Source: Ceratodon purpureus (Eukaryota; Streptophyta; Bryopsida; Pseudoditrichales; Ditrichaceae). Taken from it: DNA of 64,000 nt. A program made the translations under genes and the position numbers. Where the stretch lies: assembly GCA_014871385.1 (NCBI GenBank), contig CM026426.1, forward strand, positions 76,890,300 to 76,954,299, given 5' to 3'. Shown piece by piece: positions 8,179 through 64,000 of this stretch (the first letter of the stretch is position 1; every line of letters begins with the position of its first letter). Under the pieces are notes generated by a model. It was not told the origin of the DNA. It did no database searches and saw only the letters and a list, made by a program, of their open reading frames with translations.

Positions 8179-10930
8179 ATGGTTGACTTTCCTGCGAACA
8201 TGGGGATGGTCTGTCTGTATGCCCAAGGCATGTGAAACCCTCTACGATTTCGCGTAGATGACGATGGTCTAGCTACAGTGTTCTCTCTTTGCTTGAGTCT
8301 CAGATTTCATTTCCGTGAGAATACCATCAGTATAGAGGAGGAGATCTTTGATGACATTACTGCCAAGGTTATCCACACCCTTGGGCAACCTTCACTGAGA
8401 GATGAGAACAATATGTTGCAGTGGAGACTTTTCCCTGGATCCTATTAAGTCTTTGGTCTCACTAATTCTCTCATGGCTGCATCCACTAAGATCCTCACCC
8501 CATGTCGCTCTTCTACTTGCACAATTCAGACTCCCTTATCTCGTGATGTCAAGGTCAAAGTTGAGCCTGGCATCGAGACCTTAGATGTAGAGAAACCTCC
8601 TCCACCTTCTGTCATATCACTCTCTTCTAATGACAAAGTCAGTCCCCTGAGGTCGGTGCCTAAGGTCCAGGCTGATGCTCCTCTTTCCAATGTGTCTCCT
8701 CCATTGTCCGAGGTTAACTTTAGCATAGTTCTGCTCCTTAAACAGCTTGCAATGAGGCATGGGTCAAAAAACATTTTGAAGAAGATAGACTACTCAAGTA
8801 TTAGACACGAATGACCATATTTGTTATTTTGAGACAATTTCAGAATTTTGAGACTTTTTGAAGAAAATTTCACCAATAGTTTTTAGGCAATTTGAACCCT
8901 TTTGACTTTCTGATTATAGATTATACTTGACTCAAGGATAATCTTCCCATATATAGTCAAAAAATTTGTGACAAATATAGAATTAATCAAGAAGTCATTG
9001 AAAAAGCTATAGTTAAGCATTAAATTGAGACTATGAGAAGTCTCAATATAACGAATATGGTGTTACGAGATGATAGAGTATTTGCCTGCAAAGTTTGATG
9101 GTCCGGTCCTCTTTGAGTTGCCCCCAGCTGCTGCAGGATCCTCTAAGCTTGCCGCAAAGCCAATGCAGGGAATGGACAAACGATACGACGGACACTTGTG
9201 GACCAAGACCATCACAACAAACATCACAAACGACCTCGGACTGTCTTTTCGAAGTTCGAGATGCGTCGGATGGCTGCGCTCCAGCAACAAGGAGTGCGGC
9301 TTCCTCGAGCGCGTACCCAAGATCTTTTAGGTTAACGAGACCAAGTTTGAAGGATGTACTCTCCAAGCTTTTCCCTTTATCCAGCCTCCTCCATCCGACT
9401 TTGCGCTAGTTTGCAAGGTTTGTAAAGAACCTCCATCATGTGTTGCTACATGCGAGGCTAAGATTTTTAACGTAGTGGGCAAACCAAATCAGACTAGAGT
9501 ATGTATTCACATACGAACACATGATCACTCAGTGAAAGTTGGGGACTATAGAGACTCCAAGGCGGAGATTAGTAACTTAATACAAGAGTAGATTGCGATG
9601 AATAATAAAGCAACGAAGAGCGCCATCGTCTTGGAGGCAAGCAAACACCTCATCGGGAGCTATCTGCTACAACTTGAGGACGCACCACCAAGGAAGCTAA
9701 TGATGGAGGAGCTGGTTCCTGTTCTAGATCGATGCAAAGATATGGAGTCATCAAACATTCGCAATAAAGTCGCGACATTCAAAATCATTAGAAGGTACGG
9801 AATCATGGAAGGTATCACCAAGCTCCGTGGAAAGAGTCTGTGGGCTTCTGTCCAAGAAAATAAGTTTCCTGGTAAGGGAGCGTTGCGTGACAAAGTCTTC
9901 GTCTGCAAGATGTCGGAGGTCGGGCCGGATAGTGGAGTCGACTTGGTCAGTCGAATGCAACCTGGCAGAGATCTGGAGAATGCCTGGATCATGTTCGATC
10001 ATGTGCGACGGGTGATAGAGTGGTCAACGATGGCGTGCCATGTGTACGACGCCACCTACTGCCGCGTGATGACAATCGCGACTTGCGACATGCAGTCCGA
10101 GGACACGGAGGTCCAGCTCGTCTTCTGGAAAAACCTCAACCTCATCATGGAGAACAATGGCGTTGCAACGCCAAACTTCAAGGAGTTCATGGCGGATAAC
10201 GCACACGGTAATTAGAATGCAGTGCAAATCCTATACGGCAATGGCAACAAAGAGGACCGAATGGAGGACCGCGAGGGGTTGTGCTTGTTCCACTGGACAC
10301 AGAAGATGGTCCAGTATACGGAGAAGAACTTCCCCGAAGAACTTTGGGAATAGCACAAGAAAATGTGTACTCAGTACAGGATGGCGACCAGCATGGCAGA
10401 GGCGGACAATTTGTACCACGCGTTGCGAGCATGGTGGGCATCCATCGAGGTCGTTGGCGAGAGCGGACTTATCAAACTCGATCAGTGGCTGCCATTCTGG
10501 CACTACTGCTTTCGCTAGTGAGGGAAATTCAAATCCACTGTATGATTTCTTTATTATGTTTTGCTTTTTTTAATACATATCTCATATTCCTAACCTACAC
10601 AACTTCAATTGTTGAATCTAACAGCTTCTATTGTCTATACTACAAAAATTCACGGAAGAAGAACTTAGAGAGATGTCGATCTGCAACCTCGCCGAAAGAA
10701 TTTATAACAAGTGGCTCCAAGATTCAGGAAACAACGGTAACGACCTCTACGTTGCCACAGTGGACGATTTCGTTTGAGCATTTTTACAGGTTGTTAACTA
10801 CTACCAGTTGCTCAAAGGAGACGTCGGCGGAACAGGACCATCTAAGAAGGAACTAAAGCTGAGGATGGCGGAACGCAGGGCGAAAATCCCAGGAAATCCT
10901 ACACTGCTCAAAGATCCCATGATCGATATG
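8179..10930 (+). pseudogene. MULE-like transposase, 5' part (interrupted)
   Basis: Frame begins at ATG 8179 and runs through 8817, where a MITE interrupts it; it resumes in frame at 9066 once one copy of the MITE target duplication is removed. A frame change near 9325 leads to a zone with CKVCKEPP and C...H residues, a likely DNA-binding zinc region. The 9598-10518 block has YDATYCRVMTIATCDM, then FMADNA..N, then CLFHWTQ. These match the D-A-T-Y, D and C-x2-H parts of MULE-type DDE transposases. In-frame stops lie at 8233 (TGA), 9589, 10213, 10351 and 10516 (TAG) and 10519 (TGA). A probable intron (about 10520-10650) precedes a helical C-terminal zone ending in LLKDPMID, where a hAT-like element is inserted. 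The part downstream of that element continues at 14452. Confidence 0.7.
8812..9064. mobile_element. MITE, copy 1 (253 bp)
   Basis: Terminal inverted repeats read CCATATT(T/C)GTTAT at the left and the reverse complement at the right (ATAACGAATATGG). The flanks read ACGAA and ACGAG, a probable 5-bp target duplication. Removing the element and one duplication restores a continuous transposase frame across the site. The centre has an imperfect palindrome (GATTATACTTGACTCAAGGATAATC spans about 8925-8950). No coding capacity. Closely related to the copy at 20264-20518. Confidence 0.8.
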
Positions 10931-19880: not shown

Positions 19881-21163
19881 TTGACCTTTAGAGCTGCAGT
19901 TCCTGGAACTACCCACGTGGGCCGGCCTACAGTCACGCCACTGTTCGCCGCACCTCTCGGCTATAGTACCACCGTAGTTTCCGAAGGTTCACACGTTGCG
20001 CCATCTGTTCCGCACATCCGGGCGCATTATCCAGTGACACCAGTGGTGCATCCTTCGGTATTACCAGTCGGGCGCACACCCGACTTCAGATCAGCTCTTC
20101 CACAGCCACCTATCAGCACACAGCAAAAACAGTTACCGTACAGAGCCTACATGGAGGGATGTGATCCTAATGCACATCTCAGGTATTTTGACAAGTGCGC
20201 CTGGTTCAATGGTGAGACCGATGAAACGGTCACCATCGCACTATTTGGAACCACCCTAATAGATGACCATATTCGTTATTTTGAGACAATTCCAGAACTT
20301 TGAGACTTATTGCCTACAATTTCAGCAATTGTTTTTAGACAATTTGAACTTTTTTTTGACTTTCTAATTATAGATTATCCTCGACTCGAGGATAATCTTC
20401 CCATATATAGTCAAAAAGTTTTTGACAAATATAGAATCAATCAAGAAATCAATGAAAAAGCTATAGTCAAGCATTAAATTGAGACTTTGAAAAGTCTCGA
20501 TATAACGAATATGGTGTTATAGACAAGGCCCAGTGCTGGTTTGATGATTGGCTGGACCATCATCCATACGGAACTTGGGAGGAGGCTAAGGCGGCGTTTA
20601 AGTTGCGGTACAGAGAACAAGACTCAGATGAGCAGGTGTACATGACGCTGCGGACTTTCAAACAGGGTGAAGGGGAGAAAGTCCTGGACTATTACGAGCG
20701 CTTCATGAAACTGGTCAAGTGTCTTCAAATTGAGGTGGGTGAAGGATTTAAATTGACGTATTTCAGGGCAGGACTGTTGGATTACTTGAAGGTGACGACC
20801 AGCAGTTCTATAGCTAACACCTTGATGGAACTGAAGGAGTTAGCACGACGCTGCAAGACCAACTGTACAGATGCTTCAGGGAAGAACCTGTACTTTCAGC
20901 CTAAGAGGATAGAGCCGACCAATAGCCGGTCTACTACCACGCCAGTCCCGACAATCGGAGCCGACACTACCAACCGGATATTTTGCATAGTGTGCAAGAA
21001 ATTTGGACATGAGGATGGGTACTGCTTCTTCAATCCAACCAACCCCAACAATAGACTTCCCCGACCAGAAGACAAACCGACGGTGGGAGTCAACGCCGTC
21101 TCCGCTCATGATCAGGCCAGCAGCTCTAGGAAGCTTGTCAATACCCGACCTGGGGGATATTAG
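19881..21163 (+). pseudogene. Gag (capsid) region with CCHC knuckle
   Basis: Reads a Retrotrans_gag-like domain: YMEGCDPNAHLRYFDKCAWF, then (after the MITE) AQCWFDDWLDHHPYGTWEEA, LRTFKQGEGEKVLDYYERF and a C-terminal helix. A zinc knuckle C-x2-C-x4-H-x4-C-like motif begins CIVCKKFGHEDGYC. A TAG at 21161 ends this segment; the frame continues to a second knuckle, CYLCLGTGHQMRNC, at about 21190. Gag forms the particle that packages element RNA. The MITE and the stops rule out function of this copy. Confidence 0.7.
20264..20518. mobile_element. MITE, copy 2 (255 bp)
   Basis: Same family as the copy at 8812. The inverted ends are CCATATTCGTTAT and ATAACGAATATGG. A perfect 5-bp duplication (ATAGA, 20259-20263 and 20519-20523) flanks it. 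It splits the gag frame, which rejoins in sense when it is removed. The internal palindrome (GATTATCCTCGA / TCGAGGATAATC) is perfect here, at about 20373-20397, and more degraded in the other copy. Confidence 0.85.
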
Positions 21164-51229: not shown

Positions 51230-51544
51230 CTATGCCCGCTGGGATTGTGCAATCCATATATCTGGACGTGAAGAAATTTTGCCACCGCATTCCACCCAAA
51301 TTGGGGTGTTCCCTGCACCAGAGAGGCGGTCGCGCAGGTGTCGGAGCTCCTGTGTCGTCAGGTTCGCTAGCGGCAAATTCCGGAAATGTGAGTCCGAGAA
51401 TGGAATTGCCATCGTCCACGATGTGTTGAGAATGCCCCAGCTCCAGTTGAAACGTGCTGCCTCGAGCTCATCTTTCAGGACCCAATTGTGCTCCGCAGCC
51501 TCAGCGTAGTCAGCTCGTGCGAGGCGTATGAACACCATATTCAT
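51230..51544 (-). CDS. Paralogue of the ORF at 30672
   Basis: 104 codons, intact, starting MNMVFIRLARADYAEAAEH. Conserved blocks with the 30.7-kb ORF: IRLAR-x-D-x-A, SW-x-MA-x-P, IW-E-x2-GK, DIW. The N-terminal part of the other copy is missing here. Function unknown. Confidence 0.45.
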   Translation of the reverse strand: MNMVFIRLARADYAEAAEHNWVLKDELEAARFNWSWGILNTSWTMAIPFSDSHFRNLPLANLTTQELRHLRDRLSGAGNTPIWVECGGKISSRPDIWIAQSQRA

Positions 51545-51559
51545 TAATTTGGGACAAAA

Positions 51560-52090
51560 TGGTGACTTTGGGATTTAAAACTTTAGTTTTTTGGGAGCCT
51601 CAACCATGAGCTAAATCCACACTTAAGTCAACAATGAGCTGAATTATCTCAATAATTGAGCTAAATAAATATTGTTCATTGTGATCTAATATATTTGCTT
51701 CCTAATGTTGTTGATAATTGTAGGGACCATTGAGGAAATTGCCTTCTGTGATGTATGAGTAGGGTTATATTGATTCAGGTAAACTATGTGAGCCATGTAG
51801 GATATAATACATACGTTACATAAACAATTACACGACACATTAAAGTATGCATTTAGTCCAGAACGAGCTAAAATTCAACCAAACAAAGCAGTTTCTTCTA
51901 ACATCATCGCATTATGCATCTAGTCCAATGGGAGCTAAAATTTAAACAAAAGAAAGCGGTATCGTCCAACATCAAGGCATTATCATCATTTTTGAAAGGC
52001 AAATATACTGAACTGATACGACATTGTATCACATATTTATTGCATGGCGTGGGAATAATAAAACACTAAAATAAATTAAGTGAAGTAATT
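51560..52090. other. Spacer, no gene seen
   Basis: AT-rich. Contains a diverged direct repeat (GCATTTAGTCCAGAACGAGCTAAAATT and GCATCTAGTCCAATGGGAGCTAAAATT at about 51849 and 51915). No gene. Confidence 0.45.
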
Positions 52091-52103
52091 GGCCACTGAA
52101 ATT

Positions 52104-52934
52104 TCACACACGGGACTTCATCTCCTCTCTTGCCTTGAGTTCTTCCATGGCCTTCATGATCGCACTCCTCCGCGAAACTGTTCTCGGGTGGGATTCAGAA
52201 AAAACAGAAGTCTTTGTCTGAAGTCGAAGAATTGGGTGCGCTAAAGAGTCTCTCATCTGCCTCTTCAAGGTCGCTAGATCTGGGCCTGTAGAGGAACAGG
52301 AACGGGTTGGCTGAAATCTTGATAATCGAGGAGGTTTAGGGGCACCACTTGACATTGTCGGCATTGCGTGTTTCGAAACAACACGATCTAGACGATGTTG
52401 CTCAGTAATTTTCGTAGGCAAAGAAATAATACTATCTACGGATTTTGTTCCTACAACATGGTCTTTAGTAGAAATAACAACAGCATTAGCTAATGTCTCA
52501 ACTACTGGAGGGTCACATTCTGACCCAAGGCCACCGTATACTTGCCTTTGAGGGGTCAATGCTGTCTGAAGCGTGGGAGAGGTAGAACGCTCCAGTCTCG
52601 GAGTGCATCTCCCAACCAACTTCAAAGGAGAAGGTGAATTAACTGCAATTCGACCCCCTCCACTGCTAGGAGGACTATTCACAACATCTTGCTCCAAGTC
52701 CCCTCTTGAAAAATCTATAGCCGCAGAAGCAGCATCAGTTGCAGAGAACAATAAAAACGGTTTGGAGTACTCTTGACCTCCTAATGCTCCACCTTCGGAT
52801 ATGGAGCATGTACCGACCACCTCCCCACTTGAAAGTATGGATGGCGCTCCTAAAGAACGATCGTACCTGCAATCAAAGCCACCAGAAACGGAGTGTACTG
52901 GTCGAACCTGGAGAAAATATACCAAAAAAAACAT
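52104..52934 (-). CDS. Unrecognised Ser/Pro-rich ORF downstream of the FCP1-like exon
   Basis: 276 codons open; an acceptor-like TTTTCTCCAG near 52915 suggests an exon. Ser/Thr/Pro-rich with PSPLKLVGRCTPRLERSTSPTLQTALTP and a basic C-terminus (RRSAIMKAMEELKAREEMKSR). It may be a final exon of the ParB-like gene if the stop at 53272 is skipped by splicing, or a separate gene. Confidence 0.35.
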   Translation of the reverse strand: MFFLVYFLQVRPVHSVSGGFDCRYDRSLGAPSILSSGEVVGTCSISEGGALGGQEYSKPFLLFSATDAASAAIDFSRGDLEQDVVNSPPSSGGGRIAVNSPSPLKLVGRCTPRLERSTSPTLQTALTPQRQVYGGLGSECDPPVVETLANAVVISTKDHVVGTKSVDSIISLPTKITEQHRLDRVVSKHAMPTMSSGAPKPPRLSRFQPTRSCSSTGPDLATLKRQMRDSLAHPILRLQTKTSVFSESHPRTVSRRSAIMKAMEELKAREEMKSRV

Positions 52935-53053
52935 TTGGATCCATTAGAAAAAAGATCGGAAATGACAATCAATATAAATGGCAACTTAGGTGAAAGAACG
53001 TTCGAAAAAACATTTACGAAAATAATTCACAAAGTTCAAGGAATACATTTATA

Positions 53054-53327
53054 AAAACATGTACAAAATAGTCAACAGTTTAGCTCACTGTGAGCCAGCT
53101 TAGTCCTTCCTAAATGATTTCAAACAGCCCTATGTTTGCCAAAGCCGAAAACATATACTTCTGACACCCATGATCTGTGTTAAAAGACATTTACGAAAAC
53201 ATTTACAAAATAGTCAACAGTTTAGCTCACTGTGAGCAAGTTCAGTTTGACCTAAAAAAAGTTTAAAAAGACTAATGTTTGGCAACGCCGCAAACATTGA
53301 ATTTGACACCCATGTTCCGTGTTGAGA
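53054..53327. repeat. Tandem duplication, ~135 bp x2, with palindrome
   Basis: Copies at about 53054-53187 and 53196-53327 share ACATTTACGAAAA/ACAAAATAGTCAACAG, one palindrome each, a conserved TGTTTGCC(A/G)...GAAAACAT-like core and GACACCCATG. The second copy holds the last codons and stop of the FCP1-like exon. Confidence 0.6.
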
Positions 53328-54057
53328 GCGCCATCCCCTCTAGAATGTGATGAAATAGTGGATCGTCTTGGGACAGAGGAGGGAGTCCGATTCTGTTTGC
53401 ATCAACGTACTCTACTAGTTTCCCATTTCCCACATTCTTGTCCAGCGTTGACAACCACGGGGCCAATATGGACAGAAGAACACAATCTTCCGCATCTTTC
53501 TCAACCCATGATTTTAAAAAAACAGCATTTCCAGTGTTGTTACATATGCTCTTCTCTGGACTATCATCAATCAGGATTGTGTTTGCACTGTTGAAGGTGG
53601 AACTCTCCCCGAAAAGGAACCTTGACAAAGTTTTGAGAAATATTGGCTTGTCTCCGTTCGGGTACTTCAAGATACTACGACGAGATGTTTCAATACGGTC
53701 GCAATCTTCTTGACTTAGTATGATCGAAGGCATTGGCAAGCCATTGAACAGATAATTTACAACATCCATCGCTGTCGTGCTCTTCATTGAACTCCAGACG
53801 ACGACATGAGCAAAAGTGTTCACGAATGATATAAAATCTGAAAATCCCGGCCGAACATACACAGCCTTAGGACCTATAAGAGTGGGGAATGTTGGGCTTA
53901 GAACTCCTAGGTTAACGTGGTTCGTCACTAAGTCCTTCAATCCACTCCGCCTGTCGATGCATTTACTTAGAATTCCATTAATGTCCAATACAACGTTCAG
54001 CCACTTCTTGGGAGCTACACCCTTAGAACCTCGTGAGACCTTTGTAGACGCTTTAGC
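53272..54057 (-). CDS. Exon D: FCP1/HAD-like phosphatase domain
   Basis: 261 codons. Blocks: KKWLNVVLDINGIL (motif I), HVVVWSSMKSTTAMDVV (motif II), then PIFLKTLSRF and NTILIDDSPEK (motif IV). This is the order of FCP1/NLI-interacting-factor phosphatases, which act on phosphoserine of RNA polymerase II C-terminal domain. In motif I the canonical D-x-D is D-I-N, so the second Asp is lost. Several plant proteins of this family carry D-x-N-G at this place, so loss is not unique to this copy. Ends CGVAKH and stop. Confidence 0.65.
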   Translation of the reverse strand, partial: AKASTKVSRGSKGVAPKKWLNVVLDINGILSKCIDRRSGLKDLVTNHVNLGVLSPTFPTLIGPKAVYVRPGFSDFISFVNTFAHVVVWSSMKSTTAMDVVNYLFNGLPMPSIILSQEDCDRIETSRRSILKYPNGDKPIFLKTLSRFLFGESSTFNSANTILIDDSPEKSICNNTGNAVFLKSWVEKDAEDCVLLSILAPWLSTLDKNVGNGKLVEYVDANRIGLPPLSQDDPLFHHILEGMALSTRNMGVKFNVCGVAKH

Positions 54058-54501
54058 CTGGAAAAGCAATGAAACAAAACAAAAACCGTTACCTGATGAA
54101 ATGCAGAAGGACGAAAAGGCGATGTCAATTTGAATTTCTAATTTGAACAATTTGAACGCAATTCCACCTCGCTAACCAGAGATTTAACAGCAACCGGGCG
54201 ATGAACATAGTCAGTTGCTTCTAGCTGACCATCCATTCAGAACAACAATTTAAAGAAGTCAAGTTCTTGTAAAAGTCAAAACATTTGTAATGTGAAACAG
54301 AAACTACTGTGAATACAAAATTCATATTAGGGTGAAATGGAAACCAGGATGTGGAGTTATAAGCTTTATATATGTGCACTGCCACACTTAAAAATGTCTG
54401 TACAATCACTTATCATTCAGATAAGGTATACTGTTTAAGCAAAAATGATTAAGGCCTAACACTTAGAGTTTTAGATTGACGTAAATCTTAGAACCGCATA
54501 C

Positions 54502-56070
54502 CTCAAGACCGTCTGCACCCTTCTGGCTCTCCAAGACAATGGGCAAAGCATCTGGGAGTGACAGTGATACCTCCGGGGAGTTCTCATAATCTACCAACTC
54601 ATCCTCTTCTCCATCAGTAGGAAGATTTGTATCCAAGTGGCAGTCTGAGGGCCGTTCCTTCGAGCTCTGGTTGTTCACCGAGTTACCCTGCCCCTGCTCA
54701 GACACATTAGAAAAGTTCTTAACAGCTTCCATCGAGGTTCGGTCACCACTAACACCTCCATCAGTGTCATCATCCTCATCGGGAGTTTGAGGAACCGGGG
54801 TATCAGACTTGCAGGTGGTCTTCGGAATCGGCTGTTGCCAATCTTCCTCAGAGGCTGTTTCAGCCAAGACAGGGGCAATCACAGGTAATTGTAAAGGGTG
54901 AGGATTTTCAGGCATAGCAGTGTCGGCGCTTACACTGCCAGGTACATCCAAACCAGTTTGCTCACTGTGAGCTAAAACCGTCTGGTCGATACTCGGAGAA
55001 GGTGCCAAGGATGGAGCGGAGACAAAACCAGAGTTCCGAGCTACCATAAGAGCGAGCATTGCTTGCATGTCAGCAATCTCCTTGTCGCGTTGCTTCTCTC
55101 TCTCTTGTTGTTCCCTCAGTTGAGTCTCTGCCCTCTCCTTAGCAAGTCGGGCCTCCTCCACAAGAATTCGAGTGGCCTCCGCATCCCTCTCATTCTTCTC
55201 CTGTTTCTTCTTTTTCCAAGCCTGGTTCCAATCAAACCAATCAATGTCTCTCTTCACGACTGGTTCCCCAGGATGTGGAGCCTTACCGGCAACGTTAAAC
55301 ACCTCCTCTTCACCCTGTGGAACAGATTCAAGACGAACAGCAACAACAGGAATAACGGGTCTCGACGATTCGCCTTGAGAATTGGCACTAAGAAGAGGCT
55401 CATCTTCATCATCGTCCTCGGAGTCGCTAAGTGGTACTATGGGAACCCCGTCTGAAGTCTTCGCACTGACCTTCAACACAACTGTATCTTCCATCGGCTC
55501 TGGAACATCAACGTCATCGATATCTCTTGAGTCTTCCTCCTCCCCTTCTGTGCTCCTCCTTGATGATGATCCCACGCGACCAGCATTGAGATCTTGATCA
55601 AGGGTGAACTTCTTCACTAACCGGCGGCCCAATCTAGAACTCTGGCTTCTGAAACGGGATTCAGGTAGAGGGCAAGAGCCTCGAGCCCGAGCAGACATGT
55701 TTAGCTCACTGTGAGCTAAAAGCAGCTGCCTAGGCTCTGTTCGTGGGCTAGGCGGTGGCGCATCCTCTTCATCGAAGCCAGCTCCGATGTCTTGACCAAG
55801 CTCGCCATCAGCACCAGCGTTGTCATCCATGTCATCCGGTGATTCTCCGTCTTCGTCGTCGCTAGATTCCTGTACACCAACTGGACGATCGAACTCGTCG
55901 CTCTCAAGGAACTGCTGCCTCTCCACTGTGGGCTATATATCTTTTAAATCATAGACGGAGTTCTCCTGGATGAAATCATTGATATCTAGGGTCGGTACAA
56001 GCTTCGACATCTCTTTGTAACACTCACTGAAGTTGTGGTCGATGATTCCATAGTAAAACATACCATAAAT
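54502..56070 (-). pseudogene. Exon C: acidic, coiled-coil linker
   Basis: 523 codons with one TAG at 55933-55935, just after NSVYDLKDI. The rest is strongly acidic (SSDDEDGESPDDMDDN; SDSEDDDEDEP) with one long coiled coil (KKKKQEKNERDAEATRIL) at about residues 235-295 of the open frame. Two palindrome copies lie in it: one complete (55700-55720), read in frame as AHSEL, and one partial (54961-54975), read as AHSEQ. Confidence 0.6.
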
Positions 56071-56124
56071 CTGGAACAAAGACACATGAAATAACACTGT
56101 TAGTCACCTTCAAAGCTTCCCAAC

Positions 56125-58323
56125 TTAGCTCACAATGAGCTAAATGACTTACCAGTCTTACTGAGGAGATATACTACTGTTACAATCAACTTTAAGTACT
56201 AAGACATTTAATCTCCTAAAAGCAATTGACGCTGCTTTAAACTTTAAATCCGCAAACATCTGAATAAAAGGAGATCTTTCCAGGATAGTGTTATAAACAG
56301 TCAGATATAACATTTTAAGTTCAAGAGAAAAGAAATACAAGTATATAATATAGGAACATCTTAATACATCAAATGGTTTACTGAATCAACTCTGTTCTTC
56401 TATGAATCAGCTGACTGTGAGGAAATATTATTTCTGAAAAACGAAACTTAGAAAGAAATACGAAAGGCACATTATCACCTTACCATCAAGAATTTTACCT
56501 AATATATTGTATCAGATCGTATCAGAACAGTAAGGTAACTTTCAATGGTTATATTAAATTCAGAAAATTATGTATAACGTTTAGCTCACAGTGAGCTAAA
56601 TAGGTCAGTGTCAACTTCGTCATTTTTGTCAAGAGTTGAACAATATAAGATCAGATAAATACGACACAATTACAGCATTAGTTTTTCCTAAATCATATTC
56701 ACGGAAAGATATCTTACCCGAGCTGCCAACATGCACTTGGTTCCACTGAAGACCCCCCAGAAGTTCTCACCCGGCATACAGAATGTTTTTAGTAACTCCA
56801 AGTAGAACTCCATTCGCAATTCCCGAGCGTTGAGCCGTAGATGAGCTTCCTTGTACAGCCCATACACTGTATAGTAGTTCGTATTTGGAGCTGTATAAGA
56901 CGCCTTTACTTTCTTCTTGTCATGTATACCACCTGCACGCAACAAGAACACCAAGTACAGTTCGTCCTTTCCAGAGTTTCGGGTGGTGTGGTCGTTGAGG
57001 CGTTCATTCTTAGCAGGTATGTACCTAGAAGGAACTACTGTATATCCTTTCATGTGTTTCTCGGCGTAGGCGATCGCTTGGGCATTTCGCTGCTGCGTAG
57101 CAGATATCCAGAGCCACACTTCCGGGTCCGAGATTGAAGGCCCCTTCACCCCCATCAGCTTCTTCAGGAAAGCCTTGAAGAATGGATTTTCCACTGTATC
57201 GTCCTTCGTAGAGTGACCTCGTGTGTCGCGGAAATCCAGCAGTGCTAGACTCAGATGAGGGATACTATCATACTTCCATTGAACTCCAAAACTCCATCTT
57301 CAGAGCATTGAATAGCCGAGTTTGGATTCGACCGGTTGGAGCAACAAAGTTTCCCTTGACCTCCAAAAATCTGGCAAAGAACGGAAAGACCTCGAGCCAC
57401 CGCTCCGTCAAATTGTGTGCGCTCTTGAACATACCCTTCTTCTCGGCGCGAAATCCGTAAAATCCTTTGTCAGGTCGATCGAGGAGGACATTCAATGTAG
57501 CATTAGAAACACCGGACTCGGCTTTCTAGTCGTGCCACTTCTTCTTGTTAATCGTGTAGTCAGGATTGCAGAGCCCGAGACTTGGCTTGACATTGTGAAG
57601 CTCTTGGATGCAAATTCTCTTACGCTTCTTCCTCGCCATCCAATCCCCAGAAGAGTAATGATGGGGTAGCACCGTACCGCGTGTCTTGTGCACAGATACT
57701 TTCGGGTACTTGTACTTCCAGTTCTTGGTAAGCATCAATAAATGACGAACCAATGCCTTTGTTTCTTCTTCAGTCATGAAACCCATCCTGCGGAAGAAGC
57801 TACGCTGAAGCTGGAATGCTTTACCACCCTTAAATCCCTTCTTCTGATTGAAGCGCTCGCATGTCTCGGGATCTATCAGTTCACCTGTGCTGTGCTTCGT
57901 AATGAATTCCCTCCACAACGTGAAATGGTCCTCTGCTGCGGTAATAATCACCATCTCATTCTTCACATTCGCCGGCCCCTGTACACTCTTACCGTCTTTG
58001 TTCGGGTCAATATTCTGAAACCGTTTTATTAAGAGCTCAAGAAATTTCTGAAAAACAACAAGACGAAGAAAAATGTTAATAACTCTGTATTTCAGCACAC
58101 ATAAGACTAATAAACGAATTCGAACCCAATATAAGAACAATGAGTTTATTGACTGTATTAACACAGTCACTGAAAACTAAGTGATTTATAAAATAACAAA
58201 ACAGGTTATCACAATTCGGCTTAACATAATGTTTTCGAGTACGGGGTTGCAGACATCGATGCGTTTACATCGGGTTCAGTTCAAGGTGAGAGGAGATGTA
58301 GATTTAGCTCACTGTGAGCTAAA
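56125..58323. repeat. Intron palindromes of the ParB-like gene
   Basis: Sites in introns: 56125-56144 and 56580-56600 (intron B/C) and 58303-58323 (intron A/B). All match the half-site. The 56125 copy has CACAATGAG in the centre. Confidence 0.8.
56718..58047 (-). pseudogene. Exon B: methyltransferase-like domain
   Basis: Begins KFLELLIKRFQNIDPNKDG. Ends EFYLELLKTFCMPGENFWGVFSGTKCMLAAR at about 56718-56810, which matches N6/N4 methyltransferase motif I (PG-x-N-x5-F-x-G-T-x5-AA). The next exon adds IYGMFYYGII. Before it, DELYLVFLLRAGG marks the strand where DPPY would stand; DPPY is absent. In-frame TAG at 57526 and a frameshift near 57285. Confidence 0.5.
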
Positions 58324-58370
58324 TACGGGACAATGACAATTTCATATCCCTTTATAAGTAAGAAGTATAC

Positions 58371-59819
58371 CTGAAATTTCTTCACATTGTAAACCGCATC
58401 ATTGTTTCTCATATTATCCTTGATGTTCGTTGGTCTCCCCTGGCTGATCCAGACATTTCGGGCACTTAAGATATTCGTCCCCCACGTAGGTTGAGCATGG
58501 TTGAGATGGTTACACATGTTGTAGAATTCAGAAATCCTCACAAGAATAAGGGGATCCTTGGACCAAACTATATATGCATCCCAAGTTTCGAGCTCTTTCT
58601 TTCGTTTCTCCCCACATCCCTGAATTTGCAACTCCTGTGATGCAACAATACTATGTTGCCCATTGATAATCATAAACTTGCCGTCCTTGATATCACTCCA
58701 TGATGTTGGCTTCTCTGGCAACAGCTCCATATTGTCCTGCACTGGCATAAGGCAAACTTTCTGTCTTTGGTTAATATCACCCATGTGTACGAGCTCCTCC
58801 TTCACGGACTTTACTATATCCCGCTCTAAGTCACGAATGATATATTCATCCTTAGCAATGTGGCACTGCTTTACATTCACCGGGAATGTCGTATTCATAT
58901 TGAATACGTAGGCCTCGGTACAGTCGTCCCAGAAGGTCTTCTGGATCTCCGTGAACTTCTCGTAATCGGGCACCTCCTTATCCTTCTTTTTAGTCTTCTT
59001 CGTCTCCTCAGTTTGCGTGAGGACTGAACCCGAACTACCGGCCTTTGCTGTCGGCTTTCTCTTCTTCTTGGTAGGACCGTCTTCATCATCTTCCACTCTG
59101 GTTTGCTTTAAGACCCTAGACTTTGCCGGAGTTGGAACAGCCGACGAAGGTCTTTGTTGAATACTGCCCCGAGAAGGTGTAGCACAGTCGTCGCGGGTGG
59201 AGACAACACCTGCACTCTGTAACGACACGGGTGGGGTCTTCTCTACTACCGTGTCCGTTATGAAGTGGGTCAAGGTAAGGAATACCCGTGAGAGTCTTCG
59301 TCCAAGTGCCACTGCTTTCAATGGGCTACCGTCTGCACTCTTCCAGGAGACCTTCTGTATTTCGTCCATCAAACTCTCTCCCGATGTACCCATTAAGTTG
59401 CTAATCATTGGCTCCAGGTCAAAGTTCGTGATCTTTTTATCGACTTCGATGACAAGGGAGTGTACATGTGTTAGGTCACACGCAGACTCCTGATCCACTG
59501 CCCCTACAACAACAACTATGTAGCTCCCGTGATGCTCCTCAATCACCTTAACTCTCTCGACGACACATAGATCTAGATATCGAGGCGAATTCTTTTCTTT
59601 GTGTAAAATCCGCACGAACTTCTGGTACCTAGAGACAGCCATTGACCATCCGTCTACATGGTCTTTGAACTTCCATAGCGATCCGTAGGAGTGTTCCAGG
59701 GAGGCTTCGAAGAAAGGCTCGTCGGGATCCGGGTTAATAAAAGGCTCGATGAAGGGCTCGAGGTGACTCATATCATACCCGTCGGGCATGAGTACTTTAG
59801 TTGGTATAGTCATCTGCAA
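58371..59819 (-). CDS. Exon A: N-terminal region with ParB-like motif
   Basis: 483 codons from ATG 59819. Residues about 1-190 form an unknown globular domain (DGYDMSHLEPFIEPFINPDPDEPFF). A basic, likely nuclear signal (TKKKRKPTAK, about 250) and a KKTKKKDKE stretch follow. From about 300, YIIRDLERDIVKSV, the segment DGKFMIINGQHSIVASQEL (about 380-395) fits the ParB/sulfiredoxin G-x-H-(R/S)-x2-A signature. Arg is replaced by Ser, so nucleotide chemistry may be lost. Confidence 0.55.
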
Positions 59820-59845
59820 TGAATGTCGAGAACAAAGTTAAATCA

Positions 59846-60695
59846 TTTAGCTCACAGTGAGCTAAATATGCCTACTACTATACTCTAAACAAACTGTCCT
59901 ATCCATTATATAAGTGAACTCTAGAATCATGTTTTGATAATACTGAACAAGAAGTGGTATTTTTATTAATTTAGCTCACAGTGAGCTAAATTGCGTAGCT
60001 TTCAGACCCTTCGATGGATGCTCTTAGTTCCTTTTAGAACAGTTGGGAAATAAAATTGCATACCTGAATTCAGAAATGAACACGGTATTAGATTCTAATG
60101 AAATGAGAAATTACTAGCACTTGTAATGATAAACAGTCTACAAGTGAAGCAGAATTCAGATCACAGTATGCTAATATGTTGTTTATCTTTATTGTAAAAT
60201 CTAAATGCTAGTGAAACTGTCTTTGAATGTTTAAGTACTTAGCTCACAGTGAGCTAAATTAGAGTTAATCCCAAACTCAAGATGTTTCATTTTCTTCAAA
60301 CCTCCTTCTTACTCGAAAAGTCCTTGATGTAAACATATTGTTTTTCTGGTTCTTAGATATATTTAGCTCACAGTGAGCTAAATTGAGATTGGATTGGGCA
60401 GCATTTTGCCTCCTGTGACCTAAAATTTGAACAAATTCGCTCGTTCTGTATTAGGTCATTCCAAATGCTAGTAGAATTTAGCTCACAGTGAGCTAAATTC
60501 TGGTCTATCTGATAAAGGTTATGTTTTCTGTGAACATAAAACTAGTTTTACCCGGATTATTGTTCTATCTCTAAGATACATTATTGCAGATTAGACCAAC
60601 TTTAGCTCACAGTGAGCTAAACATTACAGTTTCTCAACGCACTTCTGGCTCACTCTGCATCCAATTAGTCATAGTTTAGCTCACATTGAGCAAAA
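59846..60695. repeat. Cluster of seven palindromes upstream of the ParB-like gene
   Basis: Sites at 59846-59866, 59970-59990, 60239-60258, 60362-60382, 60477-60497, 60601-60621 and 60675-60695. Half-site TTTAGCTCAC, one central A or T, then its reverse complement; some sites extend the symmetry by an outer A/T pair. Spacings are irregular (about 54-250 bp). The last site has ATTGAGC in its right half. They lie upstream of the ATG at 59819, as a promoter or subterminal zone would. No protein is known to bind them. Confidence 0.85.
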
Positions 60696-60699
60696 CGTC

Positions 60700-62560
60700 T
60701 ATTTACATTACTATTTCAAAATGAGTTTAAACTACTGTAAATCTCACATATCAATATGAAACATACAAACATGAATACTTCTGAACTTTTCTATATCAAT
60801 TAACATCAAAATGAGTTGCAACGTCTGGCAAAGACAAAAGAAAATGATAGTAGAGGGTACAAACACACAATTACAATAGGATCAAAAAATGCACATATTA
60901 AAAACACATACAACGATATCATTGAATTACGACTACATTGGAGAACAATGGATTCAACTGTACAGGGAATAAACTCTACATATGATAGAGTTCAATGAAA
61001 AACATCATGATAATTAAAACTCCCTACAAATTTGAAGAAAAGAAATTAAACCTCTGCGAATTCTACAAACAAACATTTATGAATCTACAACGATGCCGAA
61101 AATATCTAGAACCGCTAATGCAGTACTACTAGCTCATACAGTGTTAAAACAGAAAACATATAGGAGACATCATGCGATCTTCCTGGAGACCTAAACAACA
61201 CTTGAAAGGGAGAATATTTAACAACACCACAGGTCAGAGAAATGGAAATGTGCATACTAGTACTCTAAAAACTGTGATTTGCGGGCTGACTTGAAATTGG
61301 CGATCTCACACCGTTACAGAAGTCACAACGCCAGCAGTCGTATACAACCTAATAGACAAAGGTTAACATTTCAATATGAGTCTACTTCACAGGTTTGTTG
61401 TATCTATATCGAATTAAATTAACAAATCTGATGTAACAAAGTTCTATAAAACTAAGACAAACCACGCTGTTCTTGTGCAACACAATAACCACAACATAAT
61501 TAATGAAGGGTCACTCTTACCGTGTCTGTCAAAACGTTGCCTAATAAAATTTCGCACAGATTCTGACTATGAAAACCCGAAAACAGGTTTGATATCGGTA
61601 TCTGCACAAAAGACGCAAGAGTCCGATCACTTTTAGATGGGAAAGTTTAGGTCGTCGCGGGACAGAAACTGGACGCGAAAATGGAAACATAACCTTGCAA
61701 ACGCAGAACAAGAAAACAATCATTTCTACAACATAGAGAAATCTACTACCAAAACTTACATCGACTGCGGAACAGAAGTTACAGATGCTTCACTGCCTAC
61801 AAACCGTCGGTTTGGATCAACAAACGAAATCCAGGAGCAACAAGAAGACCATCAAGTCGAAATATACAAAGGAGTAATAATAACGCAACATCAGGACCTA
61901 AAGAAGCAAAAAACTAAACAACATAAGGCATACAACGTACCTTCGTATGCAGCGCCGCCCAGCAACAGTTCCCGAAAGGAAACGAAGAAATTCTATACGA
62001 ACCTAAACACCTAAACCTCAACAGAGGTAACTCTTGCGCTGAAGATGAACCGCTCTAGGGTTTCTAGAATAGTTAGAATCTAACAACAACAACTATCGAC
62101 AATGCCTTTGTTCATCCTGGACATAACAAACTCGGGAGCACCTACACCCAAATCATCACCACGGTCCTCCAGAAAACAAACCTAAAACACTAAACTGAAA
62201 TGAGAACCCTACATCTCCAACACCACGACCTTCACAAATGAAACCATAACATGGTGCTTCGCGTGGGGAGAGACGATGCGAAGCAGTCTCGGTAATTTGA
62301 CGCAGGCGAGGCAGCGAGGCAGACTCGGGCGTCGGTGACTTACACGGAGACTAAGAAGACTGTAAAAAAAATGAACGCAGTCGTGGACTGTTCACGACCC
62401 GTCGGGCAGGGCAGCGAAATAAAATCACATGGCGGCTGCGCGCAGCGACTCCAGCCATAGAGGCGGTGCCACGTATAGGAGTAACTTCTAGCATTTATAA
62501 TGTACATGTACACGAAAGCAAAATATACAGCAGTAAAGGAAACTCCATTATCTGTGAAAA
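60700..62560. other. Non-coding stretch
   Basis: No supported gene. Frames at 60816 and 61637 are lysine/asparagine-rich and unconvincing. 62250-62480 is GC-richer, with repeated CGAGGCAGCGAGGCAG-type units. Confidence 0.4.
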
Positions 62561-62564
62561 ATAA

Positions 62565-62616
<52 letters not shown>

Positions 62617-62657
62617 TTATATTTATATATATATATTTATATACATATATACATATG

Positions 62658-62708
<51 letters not shown>

Positions 62709-62745
62709 GTTCAAATATATGTATATATATATATACATGTATACT
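62561..62745. repeat. TA microsatellite
   Basis: Long (TA)n runs broken by TATTTATA and ATACATAT-type interruptions. This is simple sequence and a likely site of assembly or replication slippage. Confidence 0.9.
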
Positions 62746-63780
62746 TTTTTCTTTTCTTATTTTATATTTTTTCCAATAATCTTCTTAAACCTTAAATTTA
62801 TTTACGAAATCTACAAATTGTAAGGTTGTTTGTAGTATAAAATCATTTTTTATATTCTTTATGGTCTTTCATCAGACATAAATTTAGAATTATTTATTCT
62901 ATGCAACATTAAGTACATACGCAATAGAATACACTAAAATACATTAAAAAAAAATCATCTAAAATTTACAAAATTCAAGAGGTAAAACTATAATAGGTTG
63001 CCCTCCCATTCCCTATTTAGGTATAGGTATTTATACTTATATTTATGTATAAGTATTTATACATTTATACAATTGTAGAGGAAGATATATATATATATAT
63101 ATATATATAATCAACTAATGAAAACAAGGGTAAAAAATATAATTACACATGTACAATAATATAACTAAAAATTTTAAAAATAATCATAATATATTAATAT
63201 ACATAGATATTAATATATATATGTCCATTATATATGAATATATAAATATGAATATATATATGAATATATATATGAATATATATATATGAATATATATATC
63301 CATTATGTTCTTAAATACTGTATTGTCATAAATTGCAAAATGAATTTAGGGTGATTTGACCTAATTATATACACTTTATAAAAATATAGATGTTACAAAT
63401 GATGTAGAGCAATGAGTATTTATATCTACTAATATATATTCAATGGATTTGAGAAAATGTACCTACATTGAGAGGTATGTCTTAGGTATCTTGAAGTACA
63501 AATCTATGTACTCGATATAACATATAATATCAAATCATATTATACTATATATAAATATACGTATAGATATATGGTATATCCTATACATTATATAATATGA
63601 ACATTTTAACATATGTAAATATATAAACATTTTGACGTTTACCTCTTTAAACCCTTAACTAGAATATGCTTATAAAATATACACCTAAAAAAACTTAAAA
63701 TTATGTATAATGAATGAATAATTATTAATATAATTATGAATATATTTCCGTAGATAAAAGTATGTATGTATATCACGTAT
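62746..63780. other. AT-rich non-coding stretch
   Basis: AT-rich with short TATATAT tracts (about 63090-63110; 63240-63300) and no gene. Confidence 0.5.
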
Positions 63781-63789
63781 AAATATACA

Positions 63790-64000
63790 CCTATCATTAT
63801 ATGCAAACATATACATTATATATGTATATATATATATCTATAAATTTATATTTATAGAAATATCTTTCTATATATATATATATATGTGTGGATGAAAATA
63901 TGTACGTAACATATAAATATACACGTATCATATGCAAAATTTTACATTATATATATATAGATATATATATATATCTATATATATATATATCTATATATAT
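63790..64000. repeat. TA microsatellite at the window end
   Basis: TATATATATCTA-type units continue to the end of the window. Confidence 0.85.

Follow-up and report, generated by a model that had tools for sequence, protein, structure and literature searches.

The 64-kb window of the moss Ceratodon purpureus presented above, the whole stretch of DNA that was analysed, carries on its minus strand a gene of four exons summing to ~1,700 codons, hereafter gene 1, which lies in a DNA transposon; further copies were followed as loci L009 to L033 in the same genome (362.5 Mb, 151 contigs). Exon A (58371..59813), delimited by its open reading frame, predicted structure and a splice anchor, encodes an N-terminal PH-like domain with weak matches, a disordered linker and a ParB/sulfiredoxin-fold domain. 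Exon B-C (56718..58047), broken in the window copy, encodes a helical region followed by an amino-methyltransferase fold with altered motifs, both recognised from models and profiles built on relatives. Exon C2-D (54502..56070; open reading frame, family matches and splice anchor) contains the end of the methyltransferase domain and then an acidic, coiled-coil region, and exon F (53272..54057; Pfam PF03031 and motifs) encodes an FCP1/NIF phosphatase-like domain of the HAD type, with the stop codon at its end. Judged by order and splice sites, exon F is likely part of the gene 1 transcript. A GT dinucleotide directly follows exon A in all four loci in which the anchor was found (six loci examined) and exon C in 6/6. 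An additional open frame on the same strand, G (52104..52943), lies 3' of exon F, is weakly constrained and may be either a further exon or a separate gene.

The initial annotation had described these open stretches, in this order, as one fusion gene, and all of them are indeed present on the minus strand. The in-frame TAG codons and single frameshift that it reported were also seen in the window copy, and other copies are open, as in L010, with exons of 518, 495, 549 and 299 codons. Its exon structure therefore stood, although it had overlooked the 87 exon A matches in the same genome, the end of the element at position 51531 and the 14 palindromes described below. Its placement of the gene merely among mobile DNA has to be replaced, as gene 1 is itself a gene of a ~21.5-kb transposon with terminal inverted repeats and a facing gene for a DUF7869 transposase.

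The left part of this element occupies positions 51531..64000 of the window, and the remainder lies outside it, on the far side of an assembly gap beginning at 64001, which was seen in L033. Homology of independent copies on contigs C12 and C2 begins exactly at 51531, with differing flanks. The left terminal inverted repeat, AACACCATATTCATTAATTTGGGAC (51531..51555, plus strand), is matched perfectly over 25 bp, in inverted orientation, by the right end of a copy on C4, where ATAC on each side forms a 4-bp target duplication, and the corresponding empty site, TTGTACATACGGATCC, was found in the adjacent host tandem repeats. The C4 copy spans 21,544 bases (1975270-1996813), of which not every intervening base was read. 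Beyond gene 1 in the C2 copy come an AT-rich stretch that includes an assembly gap, a palindrome array and an oppositely facing open frame of 944 codons, which matches Pfam DUF7869 (E 3.1e-44). The AT-rich stretch between the divergent genes occupies 62561..64000 in the window and reaches the assembly gap; gaps in or near this stretch occur in several copies (window 62561-64000, L015, L017, L019, L030, L032 and L033).

The transposase frame has 51 matches in the genome, and exon A was found within 35 kb of 44 of the 49 transposase places counted, head to head in 44/44. These counts used 73 of the 87 exon A matches and 49 of the 51 transposase matches; the others were additional fragments of copies already included. 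The 44 pairs represent 41 different exon A copies, because two copies are adjoined by two and three transposase pieces; at C6:84405914-84413354, three tandem transposase frames adjoin one exon A copy. The transposase partner of the window copy, interrupted by four stops, lies at C6:76967752-76970565. Exon A places are enriched on the largest contig, C6 (50/73 on 110.5 of 362.5 Mb), which we take to resemble a moss sex chromosome; the element may therefore bear on the repeat filling of such chromosomes.

Exon A identity allowed a loose grouping into family I, to which the window copy belongs (~86-100%), family II (~65-73%) and family III (~40-43%), with some matches of 33-49% identity left ungrouped. 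In six family III loci, exons A, B, C and F were matched in the same order in 6/6 and C2 in 5/6; similarity to exon D was found in only one of the six, with a long open frame at its place. Such ordered open exons across copies are far beyond chance. Between families I and III, gene 1 is ~42% identical and the transposase 56%, gene 1 being the more diverged. Ratios of nonsynonymous to synonymous substitution (dN/dS) between L010 and L018 were 0.08 for exon A, 0.04 for B-C, 0.29 for D, 0.25 for F and 0.54 for G, so that constraint is strong on A and B-C and weaker on D, F and G. Exon F looks relaxed among closer copies (1.03 for L010 against L009; 0.56 for L010 against both L011 and L016). Within a single pair of copies, exon F has diverged far less at synonymous sites (0.16) than exon A (0.76), and the two halves of the gene therefore have different histories; L022 and L024 are likewise more alike in D-F-G than in A and B-C. 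Both patterns indicate exchange between copies.

The element is studded with a family-specific 21-bp palindrome, the sequence of which is kept although the repeat units around it vary in length. In family I this palindrome is TTTAGCTCACWGTGAGCTAAA, with 14 occurrences in the window at up to three mismatches, all between 53079 and 60695 and inside the element only (mean 0.00 in 100 shuffles). Seven form a cluster upstream of exon A (59846..60695; starts at 59846, 59970, 60238, 60362, 60477, 60601 and 60675), one lies in intron A/B (58303..58323), two in intron C/C2 (56124-56144 and 56580-56600) and two within coding exon D (54956-54976 and 55700-55720), where they read LAHSE or LAHSEL in frame. 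A 142-bp tandem duplication (window 53045-53323), which contains the palindrome and the end of exon F, carries two degenerate palindromes 3' of that exon (53079..53241). The information content of the sites themselves arises partly by construction, as sites were chosen by similarity; the drop at their flanks does not. In the whole genome, the inner 19 bases of TTTAGCTCACWGTGAGCTAAA occur 606 times and the reversed control not at all, and 45 of the 50 sites listed of these 606, counted by eye, have an exon A match no more than 25 kb away.

Family III carries another palindrome of 21 bp, TTATCCTCGASTCGAGGATAA, similarly laid out, with 206 exact inner sites in the genome and none for the control. 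No TTTAGCTCACWGTGAGCTAAA sites were found in family III loci, and the palindromes of the two families have no evident shared sequence. In both families palindromes are found upstream of each gene as well as in introns A/B (for family III, in L022 and L024) and C/C2, the exon D sites belonging to family I. An array directly upstream of the transposase gene was seen at L032 4170-4840. Array unit lengths vary between and within families, and the palindrome sequence remains constant. Site density is highest upstream of both genes, as would be expected if gene 1 simply repressed or activated the two divergent promoters through the palindromes and did nothing more, but sites also lie in introns, coding exons and a gene-less repeat, and we consider plain autoregulation of this kind quite unlikely. 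The spread of sites over introns, exons and gene-less copies fits an action on the DNA of the whole element rather than on the promoter alone.

These gene-less copies came to light among family III sites that stand alone, which account for 18 of the 50 sites listed of 206 (counted by eye). All five lone sites that were read lie in the middle of one gene-less repeat of 243-259 bp, the copies of which are 82-99% identical. Target duplications of 4 bp flank 7/7 gene-less copies read (ACTA, CGCT, AAAA, TGAT, TATG, ATAG and ACGA), and are perfect in those around the five lone sites. Twenty-five bases of L028, taken here as a putative terminus of the family III element, match the right end of the repeat; the final 12 bases of the repeat, AACACCATATTC, are identical to the outermost 12 bp of the inverted repeat in family I. 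Two such copies lie in the window itself. That at 20263-20518 (256 bp, 98.8% identity) has an exact central family III palindrome and the target duplication ATAG; that at 8811-9064 is older (88.7%), with three mismatches in its palindrome, two of them at CpG, and the duplication ACGA.

The central position of the palindrome in a gene-less mobile repeat, together with the array directly upstream of the transposase gene, could also indicate that the DUF7869 transposase binds the palindromes for internal synapsis, gene 1 acting elsewhere, for example as a regulator of the carboxy-terminal-domain (CTD) phosphatase type. Yet the transposase is 56% identical between the families and AACACCATATTC recurs in the family III gene-less repeat, and still the palindromes have no evident common sequence; moreover, the sites are at least 1.5 kb away from the left end and occur within introns and coding exons. 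Such a role for the transposase appears unlikely, though less so than autoregulation. Gene 1 offers the simplest account of what reads the palindrome, because the families share the transposase and the core of the inverted repeat and do not share the palindrome, and gene 1 is the more diverged partner and has a predicted ParB-type fold.

For the gene 1 product, structure models predict a ParB-type fold and an amino-methyltransferase fold, the canonical motifs of which are altered, and a Pfam match indicates an FCP1-type domain, in agreement with the three domains named in the initial annotation. The ParB part emerged from the structure comparison of exon A, in which ranks 1-14 of the best 50 matches were ParB, Noc, KorB, PadC or pNOB8 ParB; profile comparison did not detect ParB, and neither the Pfam scan of six stretches nor further sequence searches gave a ParB match. 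The nucleotide motif of ParB proteins is Arg-containing and GERR-like; at its position, Q381 and H382 are invariant among 30 sequences. For exon F, the match to PF03031 has an E value of 2.1e-14 and 53.9 bits (gathering cut-off 21.8). At the place of the FCP1/NIF catalytic motif DxDx(T/V), readable in 17 of 20 loci, DxNG stands in 16/17 and DLDG in L025, and LID(D/N)S is present in 16/17, L026 being cut.

With models from relatives, the best 50 structural matches of the methyltransferase region were all amino-methyltransferases, and its predicted structure is that of a beta-class or MT-A70 amino-methyltransferase; the HH-suite match to a methyltransferase profile exceeded its own shuffles (P 0.0012 local, 0.00013 global). 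Amino-methyltransferases typically have LDPFxGSG as motif I and (D/N/S)PP(Y/F) as motif IV, neither of which is seen in 32 relatives. The place of motif I reads xxGxK, with its Asp replaced by G, S, T or A and kept in one of them, P0076, and that of motif IV is D[FL]RxxP-like; G436, K438, D272, R274 and P277 are near-invariant in these sequences. The predicted beta-class or MT-A70 fold, and palindromic targets of the kind typical of such enzymes, would suit an active adenine or N4-cytosine methyltransferase marking the palindromes of its own element, but the departure of motifs I and IV from the canonical ones makes such activity very unlikely. The palindromes and the ParB-like protein might also serve an extrachromosomal form of the element as a genuine partition or replication system, a reading that suits a predicted ParB-type fold, arrayed palindromes and a long AT-rich stretch between two genes; copies are nevertheless integrated with target duplications, and no ParA-like gene was noticed, though none was searched for, and we regard this as highly improbable.

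Overall, gene 1 is a candidate sequence-specific factor that would act on the palindromes of its own element in anti-silencing, mobilisation or both, analogous but unrelated to the VANC proteins discussed below, a proposal in which our belief and doubt are about evenly balanced. The ParB-fold protein would recognise the palindrome in elements of its own family and be loaded or multimerise there; the methyltransferase-like domain would serve as a second part that binds DNA and is probably not catalytic. The acidic and FCP1 parts may then keep the two promoters and the chromatin of the element open, and open chromatin would license transcription and mobilisation, including those of gene-less derivatives that carry the site. 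More tentatively, and in our view doubtful rather than probable, the element may have a parS/ParB-like system, in which the ParB-fold protein with its inactive methyltransferase and FCP1 parts loads at, and spreads from, palindromes on the element and its gene-less derivatives, shielding them from methylation and silencing, with a specificity that switches as families diverge.

Several observations weigh against gene 1 as the reader of the palindrome. The reader could be the transposase or a host protein, and an array of five exact family I palindromes with spacings of 26 or 52 bp (C3:20697253-20697401) has no exon A match near it. The ParB ranking comes from a second look at the 1000 chains ranked highest by Foldseek; kinship with ParB is by predicted fold only, as the exon A profile aligned by hhalign to a ParB profile of only seven sequences gave P 0.13, equalled by 4/60 shuffles (6/60 in global mode), and the Arg pair of the nucleotide motif is absent from the consensus of 30 sequences, which reads INGQHS. 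HH-suite probabilities for the methyltransferase match are low (18.9% local, 26.7% global). The data suggest that the palindrome is retained under selection in gene-less copies, and no more than suggest it, because these copies were found largely through the palindrome itself; of the two window copies, also found by a left-half probe, the palindrome is exact in one and has three mismatches in the other, where it is kept no better than the flanking sequence.

If the proposal is true, the element would provide a further case, the second and of independent origin, of a transposon system for sequence-specific anti-silencing or licensing. Its components would be a ParB fold of bacterial type, an inactive methyltransferase and a phosphatase of the polymerase-CTD type, and protein and DNA site would diverge together. 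The means by which a nuclear parasite marks copies of itself would then become testable, with natural protein-site pairs at hand in the form of two palindromes, many copies and gene-less derivatives.

Proteins joining ParB and methyltransferase parts exist in bacteria and phages, and there too a ParB-type fold precedes an amino-methyltransferase fold; gene 1 differs in its altered motifs, the added FCP1 and acidic coiled-coil parts, its introns and its own palindromes. With bacterial ParB, Noc and KorB and their parS sites, the present element shares a predicted fold of the ParB N-domain and repeated palindromes on its own DNA; unlike them, it has no significant profile similarity, a changed nucleotide motif and a eukaryotic transposon as its setting.

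A literature search, with subscription papers mostly outside its coverage, found nothing on a transposon with these parts, and a search for 'DUF7869' returned no paper. According to the available part of one source (PMC10741241), Sola DNA transposons have a 4-bp target duplication, are reported from the moss Physcomitrella and in some cases exceed 15 kb. The likeness of the present element to them lies in the target duplication and the moss host, and no such accessory gene is described for Sola in that part (PMC10741241). Closer in arrangement are the VANDAL transposons of Arabidopsis, in which, in the available text of PMC5735166, anti-silencing VANC proteins with family-specific motifs were shown experimentally; the domains of VANC are DUF1985/DUF287, and the 9-base motif recognised by VANC21 is YAGTATTAY. 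No Pfam match to DUF1985 or DUF287 was found in the six stretches scanned at E up to 1. As far as that text goes, VANDAL and the present element alike have a better conserved transposase, a faster changing accessory protein and tandem arrays of a short motif specific to the family, the arrays differing from one related element to another (PMC5735166). Unlike VANDAL and VANC, the present element has a 21-bp palindrome, a DUF7869 transposase and a protein that joins a predicted ParB fold to an FCP1 domain and to a methyltransferase fold whose motifs are altered.
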